This document shows positions 14,842 to 25,056 of a stretch of DNA of 40,676 nt, one piece after another. The notes under the pieces are model-generated. The model had not been told where the DNA came from, did not search any database, and saw only the letters and a program-made list of their open reading frames with translations. The stretch is from Nitrospirota bacterium (GTDB lineage Bacteria > Nitrospirota > Thermodesulfovibrionia > Thermodesulfovibrionales > UBA6898): contig SCQH01000043.1 in the NCBI GenBank assembly GCA_004321925.1, positions 1 to 40,676 on the forward strand, in the 5' to 3' direction. The position numbers were made by a program, and so were the translations under genes. Each line of letters starts with the position of its first letter. The stretch's first letter is position 1.

Positions 14842-15336
14842 ATGAGCGGCTCTGACCTGATAATGTATGAAGAGGAGTTCAGCAAGATCGATGAAGAACT
14901 CCAGAAGCTGTACATCCAGACGAACGCAAAGGTCGTTTTCCTGGTGGACAAGAACGGTCAGCTGATAGCCTCTGCCGGGGAGACCCGGGAGATCGACACC
15001 ACATCGCTTGCATCCCTGACCGCGGGCAATATTGCCGCGACCGGGGGCATCGCCAGGCTCCTTGGCGAAAAAGAGTTCACGATCCTCTTCCATGAAGGGG
15101 AGAATGACAATATCCATATATCGCTCATAGGCCAGAGGGTGATCCTTGTCGTTATCTTCGACAAACGGTCATCCCTTGGTCTGGTGAGGCTGCGGGTCAA
15201 AAAATCTTCCGAGGCGCTGGTAACGATATTCAATGAGATTACCAATAAGTCAGAGAAGGAAAAGGGCTCCGACAGCCTTGATGAATCACCCTTTGCCGAG
15301 ATCAGCGATGAGGATATTGATAATCTATTTAAGTAG
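14842..15336 (+). CDS. Roadblock/LC7 protein, MglB-like
   Basis: The 164-residue protein has a roadblock core (about 8-125). Typical features are the N-terminal helix (YEEEFSKIDEELQKLYIQT), VVFLVDKNGQLIASAGE and LASLTAGNIAATGGIARLLG. The C-terminal tail (about 130-164) is acidic. It is encoded 12 bases ahead of an MglA-like GTPase, the arrangement of mglBA in Myxococcus, where MglB is the GAP that shapes cell polarity. Its partner is therefore likely the next gene product. GAGGTG precedes the ATG by four bases. The gap of 32 bases after porB suggests possible cotranscription with por. Confidence 0.85.
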   Translation: MSGSDLIMYEEEFSKIDEELQKLYIQTNAKVVFLVDKNGQLIASAGETREIDTTSLASLTAGNIAATGGIARLLGEKEFTILFHEGENDNIHISLIGQRVILVVIFDKRSSLGLVRLRVKKSSEALVTIFNEITNKSEKEKGSDSLDESPFAEISDEDIDNLFK

Positions 15337-15348
15337 GTACATGGTCAC

Positions 15349-15936
15349 GTGTCTTTCATAAACTATTCCTCCCGCGAAATAAACTGTAAGATCGTCTATT
15401 ACGGGCCCGGCCTCTGCGGCAAGACGACGAACCTGCAGTATGTCTATAAAAAGACGAACCCCGACCAGAAGGGCAAGCTTATCTCGCTTGCGACAGAGAC
15501 GGAACGGACCCTCTTTTTTGACTTCCTGCCGCTTGCCCTCGGTGACATCAAGGGCTTTAAGGTAAGGTTCCATCTCTATACCGTCCCCGGCCAGGTCTTC
15601 TATGCGGCCAGCAGAAAGCTGATCCTCAAGGGGGTTGACGGCGTGGTCTTTGTGGCCGACAGCCAGATCGAGAGGATGGAGGCGAACATCGAGAGCCTCG
15701 AGGACCTGCGGATCAACCTTGCTGAGCAGGGCTATGACCTCGACAAGCTCCCCTACACCATTCAGCATAACAAGAGGGACCTGCCGAACGTCGCGCCGGT
15801 GGAGAGCATGAACAAGCTCCTCAATCCGCGCAATGTCCCGTGGTTCGAAGGTGTGGCCGTCACCGGGCCCGGCGTTTTCGAGACCCTGAAGAACGTCGCC
15901 AAACAGGTCCTGATCGAGCTCAAGAAGCATTACTGA
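15349..15936 (+). CDS. mglA: MglA-like small Ras-superfamily GTPase
   Basis: The 195-residue protein matches MglA along its length. The P-loop is GPGLCGKTT (19-27), the switch II region [13 protein letters not shown], and the guanine motif NKRDLP. A C-terminal ALTG-like site reads [11 protein letters not shown]. MglA proteins are cytoplasmic switches that localise motility or division machinery, with MglB as GAP. The start is GTG at 15349; the nearer ATG at 15341 is out of frame. It is preceded by a roadblock gene. Role in this organism is inferred; pilus or gliding genes are not in the window. Confidence 0.9.
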
Positions 15937-16032: not shown

Positions 16033-17382
16033 TCAGGAGGCCGCCTGCAGCGAACGGGCGATCTCTTCAGCCAGGACAGAAAGCGAGTCGTCGCGGGCCC
16101 CGAGGACGACAAAGGCATGCTCTTCCAGGGGCGCCTCAAATATCCCGGCCCTGCTCTGCAAAGCGGCAGCCGATCTTCCCGCAGACCGTAACGGCCCGGC
16201 AATATCTGCGCTTGAAATGTCCTGTGCCGCTGTGCCGCCCGCATAATAGATCGGCAGCAGAAGCAGGCGGTCCGTCTCCCTCAGGTATCTGCTGAACACG
16301 TTAATATACCCGTCCTTCATCATGCGGGTCGGGCCAAAGCCATGCGGCTGAAAGATATAGCAGATGCGTTCACTTATCCCCTGCATCGTCCGCATGAGGC
16401 TCGCTATTTTGTGCGGGTTATGGGCGTAATCGTCAACGACGAGGTGGCTGCCGTCGTTCAGGTGAATATCGAACCGGCGTTCGATCCCGCTGAATTCAGG
16501 CAGAAGCTCTGCGATCCTCTGCAGGGGGATCCCCATCTCGGCGAGCAGCGCGATACAGGCGAGGGCATTATAAAGATTATGCTCCCCCGGCAGGGAAAGA
16601 CTGAAATGCTGGCCGCCAACCGTGAACTGCGAACTGAACCGTTGATAGATGATATCTGCTGCCCGGTATGCTGATCCCGTATTGATCGAGTACTTCACCT
16701 GATTGCTGATGCTGCAGGCGGCGAGGTTCCGGTCATCTCCGCCGGTGATGACCAGGCCTGACGTATGACCGGCGAGCAGTTCGAACATGCGTGAGGTCTC
16801 GGCGACGGAGTGGTGGTCAAGCTGCAGGTTTGCGATGATGGAATGCTCCGGCCTGTAGTTGACGATGCTGCCGTCCGATTCGCAGGCCTCGATGACGAGG
16901 ATATCGGAATTTCCGGCAGAATAGTTCCCGGGGTTCGCTGCTGTCCTGAACTGCTTCACCCTGCCGCCCCCAATGAACCCGGGCGACATACCGAGCCGCT
17001 GCATCAGAAAGGCAAGCATGCCGGAGGTCGTCGATTTTCCGCTGGTCCCTGCCACGGCAATCGTCCTGAACTGACCGACCAGCTCAGCGAGATACTCCGG
17101 CCTGGTCCTGATGCTGACCCCTGAAGCCCGTGCCTGGATGAGGTCGGGATTGCTCTCTTCAATGGCGGTTGAAAAGACGGCGAGGTCGCAGGAAGGGTCA
17201 ATGCCCTCGCCGTTTTGAGGGGCAAGCCTGATACCGCTTCGGGTCAATGTGCTGATGAGCGGGTGCTGAGGATCATTATCGAAAAGGCGGTCAGAGCCGG
17301 CAACCGTATGTCCCTTTGCCGCAGCAAATCCGGCCAGGGCGGAGACACCGCTGCCGCCGATACCCGAAAAGAAGATCTTCAA
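16033..17382 (-). CDS. Mur ligase family protein (MurC/Mpl-like)
   Basis: This 449-residue protein has the three-domain layout of ATP-dependent amide ligases of peptidoglycan synthesis. The N-domain begins MKIFFSGIGGSGVSALAGFA, close to MurC. The ATP loop is VAGTSGKSTTSGML (about 113-126), differing from the usual GTHGKTTT. The central domain has EACESDGSIVNYRPE and NLQLDHHS, and the C-domain has VDDYAHNPHKIASL. MurC itself usually lies in the dcw cluster; this gene is alone with cell-envelope genes, so a recycling ligase of the Mpl type or a MurC-like enzyme with another substrate is possible. The start is four bases after the stop of the REC-TM-SPOR gene. Confidence 0.8.
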   Translation of the reverse strand: MKIFFSGIGGSGVSALAGFAAAKGHTVAGSDRLFDNDPQHPLISTLTRSGIRLAPQNGEGIDPSCDLAVFSTAIEESNPDLIQARASGVSIRTRPEYLAELVGQFRTIAVAGTSGKSTTSGMLAFLMQRLGMSPGFIGGGRVKQFRTAANPGNYSAGNSDILVIEACESDGSIVNYRPEHSIIANLQLDHHSVAETSRMFELLAGHTSGLVITGGDDRNLAACSISNQVKYSINTGSAYRAADIIYQRFSSQFTVGGQHFSLSLPGEHNLYNALACIALLAEMGIPLQRIAELLPEFSGIERRFDIHLNDGSHLVVDDYAHNPHKIASLMRTMQGISERICYIFQPHGFGPTRMMKDGYINVFSRYLRETDRLLLLPIYYAGGTAAQDISSADIAGPLRSAGRSAAALQSRAGIFEAPLEEHAFVVLGARDDSLSVLAEEIARSLQAAS

Positions 17383-17386
17383 CGTA

Positions 17387-18865
17387 TCAGTTGTGGTAGA
17401 TAACGACCTTTAAGCCTTCCTTCTCCTTGAGGGTCTTTGCCTGGACAGCGGCCATTTTGGAGCTGTCGAATTTCCCGATGAGGACCCGCACCCCTTTTTT
17501 GCCGGCCTCGGCCTTCATGCTGAAGGCATCGTAGCCCTTCTGTTTAAGGCTGCTGACAAGGGACTCGGCATTTTTTTCGCTCTCAAAAAAACCGGCCTGG
17601 ACCGAAAATTTAAAAGCACCCCCGGTCATCGCAGCGGTCTCTTTTTTGGCTTCCTTTGTCTTGGCCTCTTTCTTTTCAGCAGGTTTCGGCGCGGCCTCGG
17701 TCTTCGGCCTGGCGGTCTCTTTCACCGGCGGTGCGGCCTTGGGCTTTTCGGCAGCCGGGGCAACCGGCGCCGCCGGAGGTACTGCCTTGGCTTCCTTCTG
17801 CGGGGCAGGGACAGCCGGAGTCGGAGCAGGGGCTGCGGTCTCGGCAGGCTTTACCTGGCCTGACGACGGCAGGGACTCGGTAACTACCTCTTTCACTGCA
17901 GGGGCGGACGGTGCCGGCGCAACAGCCGGTTTGCCCGTCTCCTTAAAAAAGGTCTGTTTCAGCTGATAGGCGCCGACGCCGAGCCCGGCAATGATGAGCA
18001 CCGCCGCGGCAACCATCATGATCTTCTTTTTCTTGCCGGGTTTCTCTTCTTCCGTCACGTCATCTTCATACTCTTCCATATCCTCATGCGAGGCCTGGCT
18101 CAGCTGTTCGTGCATCTCGTCATCATCACGTTCTTCATCAAAGGATCTTTTCAGCGGCTTGTCCTTCTTCTTTTCTTCTTCATCATCGTCAAATAGATTG
18201 CGGTCATCCATCTTTATCTCCTCATCTGACTGAAGATCTTTCTTTTCCTGCAGTTCTTCCCTGGGTGACGCGGGCCTTTTGAGGTGTATCACATCGGGTT
18301 CTGCATGGCGGTCTTCAGCCTTTGCTCTGTCATGTTTCAGTATGCTCTGGTCGATCAATTTGTCGGCCTCGGTCACAAAATCACGATCGTCGGCAGTGAA
18401 TCCTGCCGCGGCCTGACTGTCCTGCATCGAAAAGGCCTCGAGTTCCTCGTCGGTAAGCGGCTCTGCCTCGATCTCGGCACTGTCAGCGCTGCCCGGCTCC
18501 TCACCGATAATGGCCATGGTCGTTGCAACGATGTCGTCGGTGGTGAAGGGCCGTACGAGCGTGCCGACAACTCCGATCGTGGCGGTATATTTCGGGTCCA
18601 GGTCGCTCCGGTGGGATATCAGCATGACGATAGGGACCTTCTTCAGTTTTTCGACGGCATGGATGAGCTTGCTCACCTTCAGGCCGTTCGATTCCTTGAA
18701 GATGAGGTCTATGAATATCAGATCAGGTTCGATTTCGATGGCCTTTTCGATCCCTTTGTCCGGGGTATCGATCGCATACACATCGATCCCTCTGGGTTCA
18801 AGGGCCTTCCCGAAGAGGCTGACGGTCTTTTTGTCCTCGTCTATGACCAGTATTCTCTTTCCCAT
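17387..18865 (-). CDS. Response-regulator receiver fused by a TM segment to a SPOR domain
   Basis: The 492-residue protein has an N-terminal REC domain (about 1-122). The acidic pocket is D9, E10 and D11 (VIDEDK), the phospho-acceptor is D53 (FIDLI), and S84 is in place, but the conserved Lys is Arg105 (LVRPF). A charged cytoplasmic linker follows (about 125-278), then a single TM helix (about 281-302, IMMVAAAVLIIAGLGVGAY), an Ala/Pro/Lys-rich spacer (about 310-415) and a C-terminal SPOR domain (about 418-492, FKFSVQAGFFESEKNAESLV). SPOR domains bind denuded septal glycan. The topology would put REC inside and SPOR outside, coupling phospho-signalling to the cell wall. That role is inferred. 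Confidence 0.85.
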   Translation of the reverse strand: MGKRILVIDEDKKTVSLFGKALEPRGIDVYAIDTPDKGIEKAIEIEPDLIFIDLIFKESNGLKVSKLIHAVEKLKKVPIVMLISHRSDLDPKYTATIGVVGTLVRPFTTDDIVATTMAIIGEEPGSADSAEIEAEPLTDEELEAFSMQDSQAAAGFTADDRDFVTEADKLIDQSILKHDRAKAEDRHAEPDVIHLKRPASPREELQEKKDLQSDEEIKMDDRNLFDDDEEEKKKDKPLKRSFDEERDDDEMHEQLSQASHEDMEEYEDDVTEEEKPGKKKKIMMVAAAVLIIAGLGVGAYQLKQTFFKETGKPAVAPAPSAPAVKEVVTESLPSSGQVKPAETAAPAPTPAVPAPQKEAKAVPPAAPVAPAAEKPKAAPPVKETARPKTEAAPKPAEKKEAKTKEAKKETAAMTGGAFKFSVQAGFFESEKNAESLVSSLKQKGYDAFSMKAEAGKKGVRVLIGKFDSSKMAAVQAKTLKEKEGLKVVIYHN

Positions 18866-18870
18866 AGCGG

Positions 18871-19335
18871 TTATAGTGACATCCTTTTTTGTTCCATCGT
18901 ATGCATCTCCCCTTCGATCTCTTTTATTCTGCTCCTCTGATTATACAGAATTATAAAAAATAATAAATAGCCGGCGACAGGAATGACCGCGAAATAGGCG
19001 AGATAATCGGTGACCACGCTGTCTTTGAGGAATTCAACGAAATCCATCAGCCCGAGCCTCATGGTAATGAAAAAGACCGCAAAGAGAAGAAAAATGAACT
19101 GCAGCAGTTTCAGGAAATCCTTGAGCCCCTTCTCAGCCTGCCTGAGTTCCAGGATCTCTTTATGCTTTTGCTCAAAGACACAGCTCACACATTCCCTTCT
19201 GCCGGTTATCCGGTGTTTTCTGCAGAACGGCCCTTTCCTGCACCGGGGGCAGGTGAACCCCTCTGCAGCCCTGATATAGCTGTTACAAAGGGGACAACGC
19301 ACCAGTTCTTCCTGCTTCTCAATTTTGTCAGCCAT
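18871..19335 (-). CDS. Zinc-ribbon membrane protein of unknown function
   Basis: The 154-residue protein has CxxC pairs in its first third: CPLC (14-17), CPRC (29-32) and CVSC (49-52), plus a further Cys in PFCRKH. They form likely zinc-binding knuckles. Two hydrophobic helices follow (about 78-95, FIFLLFAVFFITMRLGL, and about 110-130, YFAVIPVAGYLLFFIILY), then a charged C-terminal tail (about 131-154). It is encoded five bases before the REC-TM-SPOR gene and two bases after the U32 gene. No family is recognised. Confidence 0.7.
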   Translation of the reverse strand: MADKIEKQEELVRCPLCNSYIRAAEGFTCPRCRKGPFCRKHRITGRRECVSCVFEQKHKEILELRQAEKGLKDFLKLLQFIFLLFAVFFITMRLGLMDFVEFLKDSVVTDYLAYFAVIPVAGYLLFFIILYNQRSRIKEIEGEMHTMEQKRMSL

Positions 19336-19337
19336 GC

Positions 19338-20570
19338 TTACTCCTTGTCCGAGAGTTCCCTGAAGCTCTTCTCTCTCCTGATAAGATCGTACGGCCTGAT
19401 CCCGTCCGGGATATTAACATAAACAATATCTTCATTCCGGGCAGAGGATATGTCCGCCCCTGTGCTGTCCTTCATGGTGCTGATCTCAAAGAGCCTTCCT
19501 TCCAGCCCGGGCGACAGGTATCCAACGCGGTCCTGTTTATCGACCCTGTTGCGCAGCCCGACCCGTGCAAGGCCGTCCTGAACATCAAGGACCACGCCGA
19601 CCAGTTCATGGCTCATCCGGTAGCTTTCTCCGTCAAAATTATAGCCGGCGTCCGGCTGTTTTCCAAAGAACATGCCTGTCGTATACCCCCTGCTGCTGAA
19701 CATCCGGAGCTCTGCCAGCCAGCGCTCTTTTACATTATATGCTATCTCGCTGCCGATTGCATCAACAGCCTCGCGGTATGTCTTGACGACCCCGGCAACA
19801 TAGTTAATGCCTTTCATCCTGCCTTCGATCTTGAAGCTGTCCACCCCGGCGGCAGCAAGGTCCGCAAGGTGTTCGATCATGCAGAGGTCCTTTGAGCTCA
19901 TGAGGTAGGTCCCCCGTTCGTCCTCGAAGACCGGGAAGTATTCCCCCGGCCGCTTTTCCTCCATGAGACGGTAGTTCCATCTGCAGGAGTTCGTGCAGGC
20001 CCCCTGGTTGGCGCTCCGCGCTGTCAGAAAACTGCTGATATAGCACCTGCCCGAATAGGATATGCAGATCGACCCGTGGACAAAGGTCTCGAGTTCAAGA
20101 CTGCTGTTGCTGCGGATATCCCTGATCTCGTCAAGAGAAAGCTCCCGTGACAGGACAAGCCGCCTGGCCCCGAGCCGCTCCCAGAACTTGACTGCCTGCA
20201 GGTTCGTGATATTTGCCTGCGTGCTGATATGGATGCCGAGCTCCGGAGCCCTTTCCCTGACCATGGAAAAGACCCCGGGATCGGAAAGGATGACCGCATC
20301 CGGCCGCGCCTCTTTCAGCAGGTCTATATGCTCCGCGATCCCCGGGATATCCCGGTTGTGCGGAAAGATATTCATGGTCACATAGGCCTTTGCCCCGTGA
20401 TCGCGGGCAAAGCGTATGGCGTCCCCGAGCTCTGCAGGGCCGAAATTGCCTGCCTTGCCGCGGAGGCTGAAGCGCGAGTCTCCCAGATAGACGGCATCGG
20501 CCCCGTAATGGATGGCTGTCCTGAGCTTTTCCAGATCTCCGGCAGGGGCAAGGAGCTCGGGTCGTTTCAC
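19338..20570 (-). CDS. U32-family protein (tRNA/rRNA hydroxylation, TrhP/RlhA-like)
   Basis: The 410-residue protein opens with [20 protein letters not shown] and GADAVYLGD, the U32 signature. The four-cysteine region is [11 protein letters not shown] and [13 protein letters not shown], and the conserved [10 protein letters not shown] and [14 protein letters not shown] follow. Members once called collagenase-type peptidases are now known as RNA hydroxylases (TrhP for tRNA uridine, RlhA for 23S rRNA). TrhP-like is the best guess, but subfamily assignment needs alignment. The start codon is GTG, overlapping the rnhA stop (GTGA). Confidence 0.88.
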
Positions 20571-21031
20571 CGGCCGAGACCTTTCCTGAAATCAGTGATG
20601 CACTGCCGGGCAAGTTCGTCGCAGCGTTCATTCTCGTCATGACCATTGTGGCCCTTGATCCACTGCCATTCGACCGAGTGAGGGGCCGCAGCCCTGAGCA
20701 GGCGCTCCCAGAGGTCCCTGTTCATGACCTCTTTTTTCTGGGAGTTCCTCCAGTGGTTCTTTATCCAGCCCTTGATCCATTCGGTCATCCCCTTGACCAC
20801 ATAGCTCGAATCGGTCATGACCCTGACGGAGCAGGGTTGTTTCAGGGCCTCCAGGGCGGTGATGACACCCAGCAGTTCCATGCGGTTGTTCGTCGTCATC
20901 TCCTCGCAGCCGGAAAGTTCCCGGCTCCTGTGCTCTGATCTCAGGATCGCCCCGAAGCCGCCCGGACCGGGGTTTCCGCTGCAGGCGCCGTCTGCAAAGA
21001 TCTCAACGAAGGGTTTATGGCCTGTTTTCAT
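20567..21031 (-). CDS. rnhA: Ribonuclease HI
   Basis: This 154-residue nuclease cuts RNA in RNA-DNA hybrids. It starts the fold with [20 protein letters not shown], where the Asp in FADGAC is the first catalytic acid. [11 protein letters not shown] supplies Glu, [12 protein letters not shown] supplies Asp, and [16 protein letters not shown] gives the final His-Asp pair. All catalytic residues are present. It precedes the U32 gene and overlaps its start by four bases. Confidence 0.95.
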
Positions 21032-23061: not shown

Positions 23062-25056
23062 CTAAGCTTCAGCGCCGGTTAAGACTTCGTGCAGGACCTG
23101 GCTGAGCCGGGGGATGCGGTAGGGTTTGGGCAGTGCGGCCTTAAACCCGTAATCGCGGTAGTTGGCCATGATAAGGTCTTCGGAATATCCGCTTGAAACG
23201 ATAGCCCTGGCATGCGGGTCAAGCTCCAGGAGCTTTTTTATAGCATGCTTGCCGCCCATCCCTGACGCTATGATAAGGTCTATGATAACAACATCAAAGG
23301 GGTGGCCTACCTCCAGCGCCTCCGCGTATTTACTGAGCATCTCCTCCCCGTTATTGGAGAAGGCCGCATTGCAGCCGCACTGGTTGAGCATCCTTTCGAC
23401 GACATGCCTGACGAGCTCATCATCGTCCATGACGAGGATATTTCTTCTTCCAACGGGGATCCTCCTGTTTCGGTCATTCTGCTGTGTGGCGGCCCTGGCC
23501 GCAGGGATATAGATATGAAAGATGGTCCCGGTCCCTGCCTGGGATTCGACCGTGATATAGCCGTCATGGCCCTGGATGATCGAGAACGCGGTGGTCAGAC
23601 CAAGGCCGACGCCTTTATGCTTTGTGGTGAAAAAGGGCTCAAAGATCCTCTCGATGCAGGGTTCGGCTATCCCGCTGCCCTGATCAGAGACTGAGAGCTT
23701 CAGGTAGCGCCCCTCGCGTATGCTCGGGATCGCCGCAGGCGCTGCCTCAATGTTTTCGGCCTCTACGGTTATCAGGCCGCCGCTGGACATCGACTCCCGG
23801 GCATTCTCAATGATGTTGGTCAGGGCCTGCCTGATCTGTTCCTCGTCGACCTCGACAGGCCAGAGGTCCTTCTGCAGGGAAAGTTCGCAGCGTATCGGGG
23901 AGTCGTCCTGCAGCGCGGTCAGGCCCTCAAAGAGCTCCTCGGCGGTGATGATCTTTTTGAAAAGGGTGCCGCCCTTCGAAAAGACGATGAGCTGCCGCGT
24001 GAGCTTCTCGGCCTTCTGAGACCCTTTTTCCGCCTCTGAGAGGATATCAGCGATCTCCGATCCCGGCTTGGCATACATCTTCGCCAGCTGGATATTTCCG
24101 GTGATAGCGGTCAGAACATTGTTATATTCGTGTGCGATGCCGGCTGCCAGCATGCCCAGGGACTCCAGCTTCTCGACCTTCAGGGCCTCCCGTTCGAGCC
24201 TCCTGCGCTCGGTGATATCGATGACGGTCCCTATGATGACACGGCAGTTGTTAAGTTCGGCCACGGTGCCCTGGGCCTCAAGGTCCAGGATCGCTCCGTC
24301 CTTTCTTCTGCCTTTAAAGGTATAGTGGACGGTCTTTACTTCACCGGAAAGGCGTTTCCGGATATTTTCGGCAACGATCTCCCTGCTTTCTTCAGTGACC
24401 AGGTCGATCGCAGGCTTTGAGACAAGCTCGCCCGGAGCATAGCCGAAGATCTCTGAAAAACGGGGGTTCACGTAGACCAGTAGGTTGTCCTGGATGATAT
24501 AGATGCCGACGAAAGACTGTTCGATGAGGGTCCTGAACTTGGTCTCGGCAGCGTAGAGCGCCATTTCGATCTGCTTGCGCTGGGTGATGTCCCTGACCGC
24601 CTCGATCCCTGCAATGATCTTTCCGGTCGCGTCCGTTAACGGAGACGATTTTATTTCGTAGTAGATGATGCCTCTGTCGGTCGTCCTGGTCTGTTCCTTT
24701 ACATGTACCTTGCCGTCAATGAACGATTCCGCAAGGTGGCAGCCTTCGCAGACAGCATCTCTGCCCTGGAATGCCTTATAGCAGAACTCCCCGATATGAT
24801 CCCCCACCATGTCCTTATGGTTCTGGTTCTGAAGCAGCACCCTGAAGTTTGTGTCCTGGACACTGATGCCGTCGCCGATGGCGGCAATGATGGCCTCGGT
24901 CCGTGCCTTTTCTTCCCCTGCCATGATGACCGCCTGTCTCATGACATTTTCGACACGTTTGAACTCGGCCTTGAGCTTTTCGAACTCCGAGGCCTGCCGG
25001 CATGCCTCGGCCAGTTCTTCTATAAGGTCCTCTCTGGTTTTCTCTTCATTTTTCAT
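23062..25056 (-). CDS. PAS-PAS hybrid sensor histidine kinase with C-terminal receiver
   Basis: The 664-residue protein starts with a coiled coil (about 5-55). PAS1 (about 56-160) contains C92, C103, C106 and H107 (FCYKAF, CEGCH). PAS2 (about 172-283) follows, then HisKA with H309 (GIAHEYNN), the N box (TNIIENARES, about 413), the G boxes (DQGSGIAE and GVGLGL, about 458-486) and a receiver (about 538-660) with D544-D546, D593 and K644 intact. No TM segment is found, so it senses inside the cell. The short CxxC in PAS1 could hold a metal; the CEGCH string is a CxxCH match but the protein is cytoplasmic. No cognate regulator lies next to it. Confidence 0.92.
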   Translation of the reverse strand: MKNEEKTREDLIEELAEACRQASEFEKLKAEFKRVENVMRQAVIMAGEEKARTEAIIAAIGDGISVQDTNFRVLLQNQNHKDMVGDHIGEFCYKAFQGRDAVCEGCHLAESFIDGKVHVKEQTRTTDRGIIYYEIKSSPLTDATGKIIAGIEAVRDITQRKQIEMALYAAETKFRTLIEQSFVGIYIIQDNLLVYVNPRFSEIFGYAPGELVSKPAIDLVTEESREIVAENIRKRLSGEVKTVHYTFKGRRKDGAILDLEAQGTVAELNNCRVIIGTVIDITERRRLEREALKVEKLESLGMLAAGIAHEYNNVLTAITGNIQLAKMYAKPGSEIADILSEAEKGSQKAEKLTRQLIVFSKGGTLFKKIITAEELFEGLTALQDDSPIRCELSLQKDLWPVEVDEEQIRQALTNIIENARESMSSGGLITVEAENIEAAPAAIPSIREGRYLKLSVSDQGSGIAEPCIERIFEPFFTTKHKGVGLGLTTAFSIIQGHDGYITVESQAGTGTIFHIYIPAARAATQQNDRNRRIPVGRRNILVMDDDELVRHVVERMLNQCGCNAAFSNNGEEMLSKYAEALEVGHPFDVVIIDLIIASGMGGKHAIKKLLELDPHARAIVSSGYSEDLIMANYRDYGFKAALPKPYRIPRLSQVLHEVLTGAEA

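Follow-up and report, generated by a model that had tools for sequence, protein, structure and literature searches.

A family of Nitrospirota membrane proteins that joins a pseudo-receiver to a SPOR domain

The window, a stretch of 40,676 nucleotides from a Nitrospirota genome, contains a gene for a protein in which a receiver domain (REC) that has lost residues needed for phosphorylation is joined through a single transmembrane (TM) helix to a SPOR domain. This REC-TM-SPOR architecture recurs in a family whose receivers share a new signature in helix alpha4, and whose members are, in one large group, encoded directly after an amidase and a MamK-family actin. Our leaning, a slight one, is that these proteins are phosphorylation-independent adaptors that span the envelope, with the SPOR domain placed on amidase-denuded glycan and the pseudo-receiver docking a cytoplasmic partner. 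The usual view of SPOR proteins is that they read denuded glycan from the periplasm; with a conserved dead receiver added on the inside, there would be a concrete route by which the state of the wall could reach the cytoplasm without phosphorylation. The gene linkage of the relatives hints at a connection between the cell wall at the division site and the cytoskeleton. If that is true, MamK-family filaments would gain, through the pairing of an amidase with a MamK-type actin, a function beyond magnetosomes, and the anchoring of an internal filament to a spot on the wall would become testable with three genes. In an open literature search, MamK and "SPOR domain" were not found together, and SPOR domain, response regulator and receiver domain occurred together only in a resistance-screen paper.

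Architecture and distribution of the family

As the preliminary description had proposed, one frame encodes a receiver, a charged linker, a single TM helix, a Pro/Ala spacer and a SPOR domain, and this layout is borne out by the open reading frame, Pfam and AlphaFold2 (Table 1; frames were called mechanically and TM helices by hydropathy). Both domains scored above their Pfam gathering cut-offs (Response_reg, residues 5-114, E = 5e-12; SPOR, PF05036, residues 419-486, E = 3e-12), and AlphaFold2, given a 27-sequence alignment, returned a confident (beta-alpha)5 domain at residues 1-120 (block pLDDT 83-97), then a single long helix spanning 278-307 and, at 420-491, a SPOR fold that is again confident, with disordered linkers. 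Basic residues are more numerous on the N-terminal side of the TM helix in 65 of the 75 proteins of the family, which supports, by the positive-inside rule, the expected topology with REC in the cytoplasm and SPOR outside that had been suggested before. Within the SPOR domain, Q423 and F427 are invariant in 27 sequences; matched by their spacing in the motif, they correspond to Q270 and F274 of RlpA, which contact glycan (PMC6895207). The conservation of this Gln/Phe pair lends weight to the earlier suggestion of glycan binding, and the SPOR domain of the window protein probably grips denuded glycan on the outside.

Table 1. Features of the REC-TM-SPOR gene and its surroundings, in positions of the window
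Feature	Position	Strand	Basis
REC-TM-SPOR gene, type 1, 492 aa, ATG start	17387..18865	(-)	ORF, Pfam for both domains, AlphaFold2 model, relatives
Pseudo-receiver domain, aa 1-120	18506..18865	(-)	Pfam PF00072 and fold matches
Asp53, phosphosite position; Asp in just 4/75 relatives	18707..18709	(-)	Receiver alignment
Ile83 replacing conserved Thr/Ser	18617..18619	(-)	Receiver alignment
Arg105 replacing conserved Lys	18551..18553	(-)	Receiver alignment
Signature of the family in alpha4, aa 90-101; window copy DPKYTATIGVVG, family consensus DPRYTxxYGIVD	18563..18598	(-)	Receiver alignment
Acidic disordered linker, aa 125-277, 35% D+E in scored part	18035..18493	(-)	AlphaFold2, composition
RNLF motif within linker	18191..18202	(-)	Motif count in type-1 proteins
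Transmembrane helix, aa 278-307, KKKK at start	17945..18034	(-)	Hydropathy, AlphaFold2
Pro/Ala-rich periplasmic spacer, aa 308-418	17612..17944	(-)	Sequence
SPOR domain, aa 419-488, with Q423 and F427	17402..17611	(-)	Pfam, alignment, AlphaFold2
MurC-like Mur ligase, second copy	16033..17382	(-)	Pfam, profile score, conserved linkage
Cys-rich zinc-ribbon-like protein, two hydrophobic stretches	18871..19335	(-)	Sequence; adjoins type-1 genes in relatives
U32 peptidase / TrhP-like gene of cluster	19338..20570	(-)	Domain and profile matches, conserved neighbourhood
RNase HI gene of cluster	20567..21031	(-)	Conserved neighbourhood
mglB-mglA pair, convergent with cluster	14842..15936	(+)	Domain and profile matches, neighbourhood

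A combination of profile search, frame extraction and local HMMs, covering 129 genomes of the order of the window genome and then the wider phylum Nitrospirota, yielded 75 relatives in which a single frame encodes REC, a hydrophobic helix and SPOR, among them proteins of this layout from the same genus and family as the window genome. The preliminary description had allowed for two genes with a missed stop, or for homologues lacking REC; because all 75 relatives share the layout in one frame, we conclude that this is a single gene, and a frame-fusion artefact is ruled out. Within the order, 63 of the 129 genomes are positive, and one more (G313, L204) carries a copy truncated by the contig end; profile search found none in families f8, f10, f12 and f13. 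Matches elsewhere in the phylum all fall in the same class, where two genomes (G170 and G199) carry the gene and G266 gave a match in the receiver range only. When genome contigs were scanned with the window protein alone, a single full-length relative turned up, in a Nitrospirae MAG. Profile A1 matched nothing at 1e-32 among 296 genomes around a Desulfotignum record (L039) and nothing at 1e-30 among 189 genomes around an Omnitrophota record (L040), and since few candidates were scored per genome and no positive control was included, this negative for other phyla is a weak one. Two single cases may be mentioned here: a genome of family f4 carries two REC-TM-SPOR genes in tandem (L134:5760-8275), and one relative from the clade of the window copy (L025 / L055, G005 contig C5) has an in-frame TAG close to the beginning of its frame and may be a pseudogene or the product of an error in assembly.

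Loss of phosphorylation residues and a conserved alpha4

Receiver columns were set by alignment to CheY, which served as the ruler. Not one of the 75 relatives is intact in the five catalytic residues, and the phospho-Asp is absent in 71 (the phosphosite column reads N 38, S 15, K 14, D 4, R 2, E 2); among 45 ordinary receivers encoded at these loci, 42 are complete in all five. The window receiver has D9, E10 and D53, with Ile83 in place of Thr and Arg105 in place of Lys; D53 and Arg105 had been read correctly before, and Ile83 at the Thr/Ser position is an addition. The domain has the (beta-alpha)5 fold of PF00072 (Pfam, AlphaFold2, VIA Z about 20), and the window copy departs from the DD, D, T/S, K pattern of a phosphorylatable receiver. 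A 2025 review applies the term pseudo-receiver to receiver-like domains without key catalytic residues and cites FrzS (PMC12632262). By its aligned residues, the REC domain of the family is such a pseudo-receiver, recognized as a receiver and lacking these residues. As the window copy keeps D9, E10 and D53, a weak phosphorylation could still occur.

Compared with the control receivers, and leaving the phosphosite aside, the strongest family-specific conservation lies in alpha4 (mean KL 3.0 bits versus 0.5-1.9 in the other elements), where the pattern D-P-R-Y...Y-G-I-V-D runs across the family: Tyr93 occurs in 64, Arg/Lys92 in 62, Asp90 in 56 and Tyr97 in 55 of the 75 proteins. Of these, the window copy retains D90, K92 and Y93, with Ile in place of Tyr97. 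Within type 1 (the clade of the window copy, see below), REC is the best conserved region, with 52% mean identity versus 22% for the linker, and the dead receiver is thus under constraint. The linker itself carries an R[ND]LF motif in 9 of 17 type-1 proteins and in none elsewhere. Fold matches of the window receiver include CheY4, DivK, PhoP and FrzS, the last of which is among both sequence and fold matches, though not at the top.

Gene neighbourhoods of the two types

The window copy and 16 relatives form a single clade with a support of 100, which we call type 1. Its members lie in a conserved cluster, observed in family f1 only, of rnhA, a U32 peptidase gene, a gene for a small Cys-rich membrane protein, REC-TM-SPOR and a Mur ligase gene. 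The Mur ligase gene that had been noted four bases on was confirmed; its product is MurC-like at 283 bits, below the cut-off of 335, and we regard it as a second copy because Mur ligases, including a MurC-like one, are encoded on contig C39. For the Cys-rich protein, no Pfam family reaches its cut-off. In many genomes the type-1 cluster has an mglBA pair close by, and MglA identities within the family are mostly 90-96%. A close coupling to MglA was nevertheless rejected, as the two distributions fit poorly: many genomes have MglA and no REC-TM-SPOR, and in family f3, where REC-TM-SPOR occurs, MglA is missing from nearly all genomes. The window also encodes a PAS-PAS-HisKA-HATPase-receiver hybrid kinase (23062-25056), the position of which is conserved in the same genus.

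Type-2 genes directly follow genes for an Amidase_3 protein and a MamK-family actin, with the amidase at position -2 in 23 loci and the actin at -1 in 21, as scored on contigs of limited length. As called, the amidase and actin frames abut or overlap, and 24-107 bases usually separate them from the REC-TM-SPOR start. Compared with the PDB, the actin matched solved MamK at E = 3e-84 and MreB only at about 1e-8, and one of these actins (L136:4343-5368) belongs to the NCBIfam MamK family with 411 bits against a cut-off of 400. The amidase carries a conserved basic stretch resembling ILRGVYEDNLRIIGK before its TM helix in at least 23 of 30 proteins (L077:4719-5768 and 29 others); on what is presumably the cytoplasmic side, this stretch is a possible docking site. 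Other neighbours of type-2-like genes (ribD, cysS, HDAC-like and deoxyhypusine-synthase-like) occurred in subclades and had no common theme.

The operon-type actin, defined by at least 63% identity to the query, occurs in 31 genomes of the order, all 31 of which have a REC-TM-SPOR gene, and in none of the 66 genomes scored REC-TM-SPOR-negative, with G313 and its truncated copy counted among the 66. When presence was shuffled within families, 20,000 draws never reached the observed co-presence, a test that is generous because of the linkage in one operon and shared ancestry. The genome of the window has such an Amidase_3 and MamK-family actin pair (G000 contig C72, L171:8004-10053) with no REC-TM-SPOR gene adjoining; its sole REC-TM-SPOR gene is the window copy, on another contig. 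Likewise, G002 and G011 have the pair without a third gene alongside and a type-1 gene elsewhere, and G003 has the pair too, as judged from two match positions; in the type-1 genomes G004, G014 and G022, a MamK search gave no match. A pair that lacks an adjoining third gene is consistent with, and no proof of, a type-1 protein that would serve the amidase and actin in trans. Separately, a genome from the phylum of the Desulfotignum record (G494, L199:4787-6950) has an amidase and MamK-like pair with 70% identity and no REC-TM-SPOR neighbour.

A candidate adaptor and its alternatives

Amidases strip stem peptides at the septum, and SPOR domains bind the bare glycan that results (PMC6895207). 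For an envelope-spanning adaptor, this would mean that the protein is kept at denuded glycan by its periplasmic SPOR domain, at the septum and then at the new pole, while the pseudo-receiver, carried by the long acidic linker, uses its conserved alpha4 face to recruit or anchor a cytoplasmic partner. The amidase linkage counts for such an adaptor because the amidase makes the expected SPOR ligand, and FrzS provides a case of a pseudo-receiver that binds a protein, SgmX, via alpha3-beta4-alpha4 (PMC12632262). Candidate partners are a MamK-like actin, MglA/MglB or a divisome protein: for type 2, the first candidate would be the filament of the co-operonic MamK-family actin; for the type-1 protein of the window, it may be the same actin, encoded in trans, or else the polarity module MglA/MglB, whose genes lie close by. 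A more specific version is tentative and on balance somewhat doubtful: amidase, non-magnetosome MamK-type actin and TM pseudo-receiver/SPOR protein would form a three-gene module linking an actin filament to septal or polar wall that has been denuded, and the window protein would be a relocated paralogue acting on the same pair in trans. The position of the window copy outside the amidase-MamK operon counts against the adaptor and its actin partner, as do the type-1 genomes in which MamK was searched for and gave no match.

Other explanations differ in what they make of the receiver. The preliminary description had it as a true response regulator, in which phosphorylation of D53 by a sensor kinase would control a SPOR protein at the division site. 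D9, E10 and D53 of the window copy and an Asp at the phosphosite of L042, from the same genus, would suit this, but other proteins of the genus have Asn at 53, the window copy lacks Thr and Lys, and the contrast between the relatives and the largely complete control receivers speaks against kinase control; the nearby PAS kinase that had been put forward as partner is a hybrid with a receiver of its own, and a neighbour in the same genus only. We thus consider phosphorylation control very unlikely. Loss of the catalytic residues would also be expected if the receiver were a mere fold, a stable spacer or dimer module without a specific partner; this is improbable in view of its standing as the most conserved part of type 1 and of the new family-specific conservation in alpha4. 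A plain divisome SPOR protein, FtsN/DedD/DamX-like and with its pseudo-receiver docking FtsA or FtsZ and not an actin or polarity protein, is unlikely in our judgment, if deserving of attention: anchor, low-complexity spacer and SPOR domain are the usual layout of SPOR proteins (PMC6895207), and Mur ligase and SPOR genes share one cluster, but many genomes of the same order do without the gene, which would be odd for a core divisome part, and the strongest linkage of the relatives is to the amidase and MamK.

The adaptor that we favor would resemble several known systems in part. In Sinorhizobium meliloti, growth polarity is set by a landmark that an amidase makes and a SPOR protein reads: RgsS and AmiC likewise combine a SPOR protein with an amidase, and denuded glycan is proposed as the polarity landmark (PMC7822825). 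RgsS is described as FtsN-like, with no mention of a receiver domain, and differs from the window family in having no MamK operon. Magnetotactic bacteria likewise combine a MamK-family actin with an acidic tether, MamJ (PMC7017999, PMC10653835), and the acidic linker of the window protein recalls the acidic MamK-binding proteins MamJ and LimJ, which we take as a lead only; the type-2 actin adjoins amidase and SPOR genes, whereas MamK of magnetotactic bacteria adjoins magnetosome genes. FrzS of Myxococcus xanthus (PDB 2i6f, 2gkg) has a receiver fold like that of the window protein (24% identity, VIA Z 19.4), although ordinary receivers match equally well by fold; it works without phospho-control, through binding to other proteins, and has a link to MglA (PMC12632262). 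The FrzS family combines a pseudo-receiver with a long coiled coil and has no TM helix or SPOR domain, whereas the linker of the window protein is predicted to be disordered and leads into TM helix and SPOR domain. FtsN, DedD and DamX of Escherichia coli share with the window protein a membrane anchor, a disordered spacer and a SPOR domain. None of the three is known to have a receiver domain, and the window protein differs from them in its cytoplasmic part of about 277 residues.
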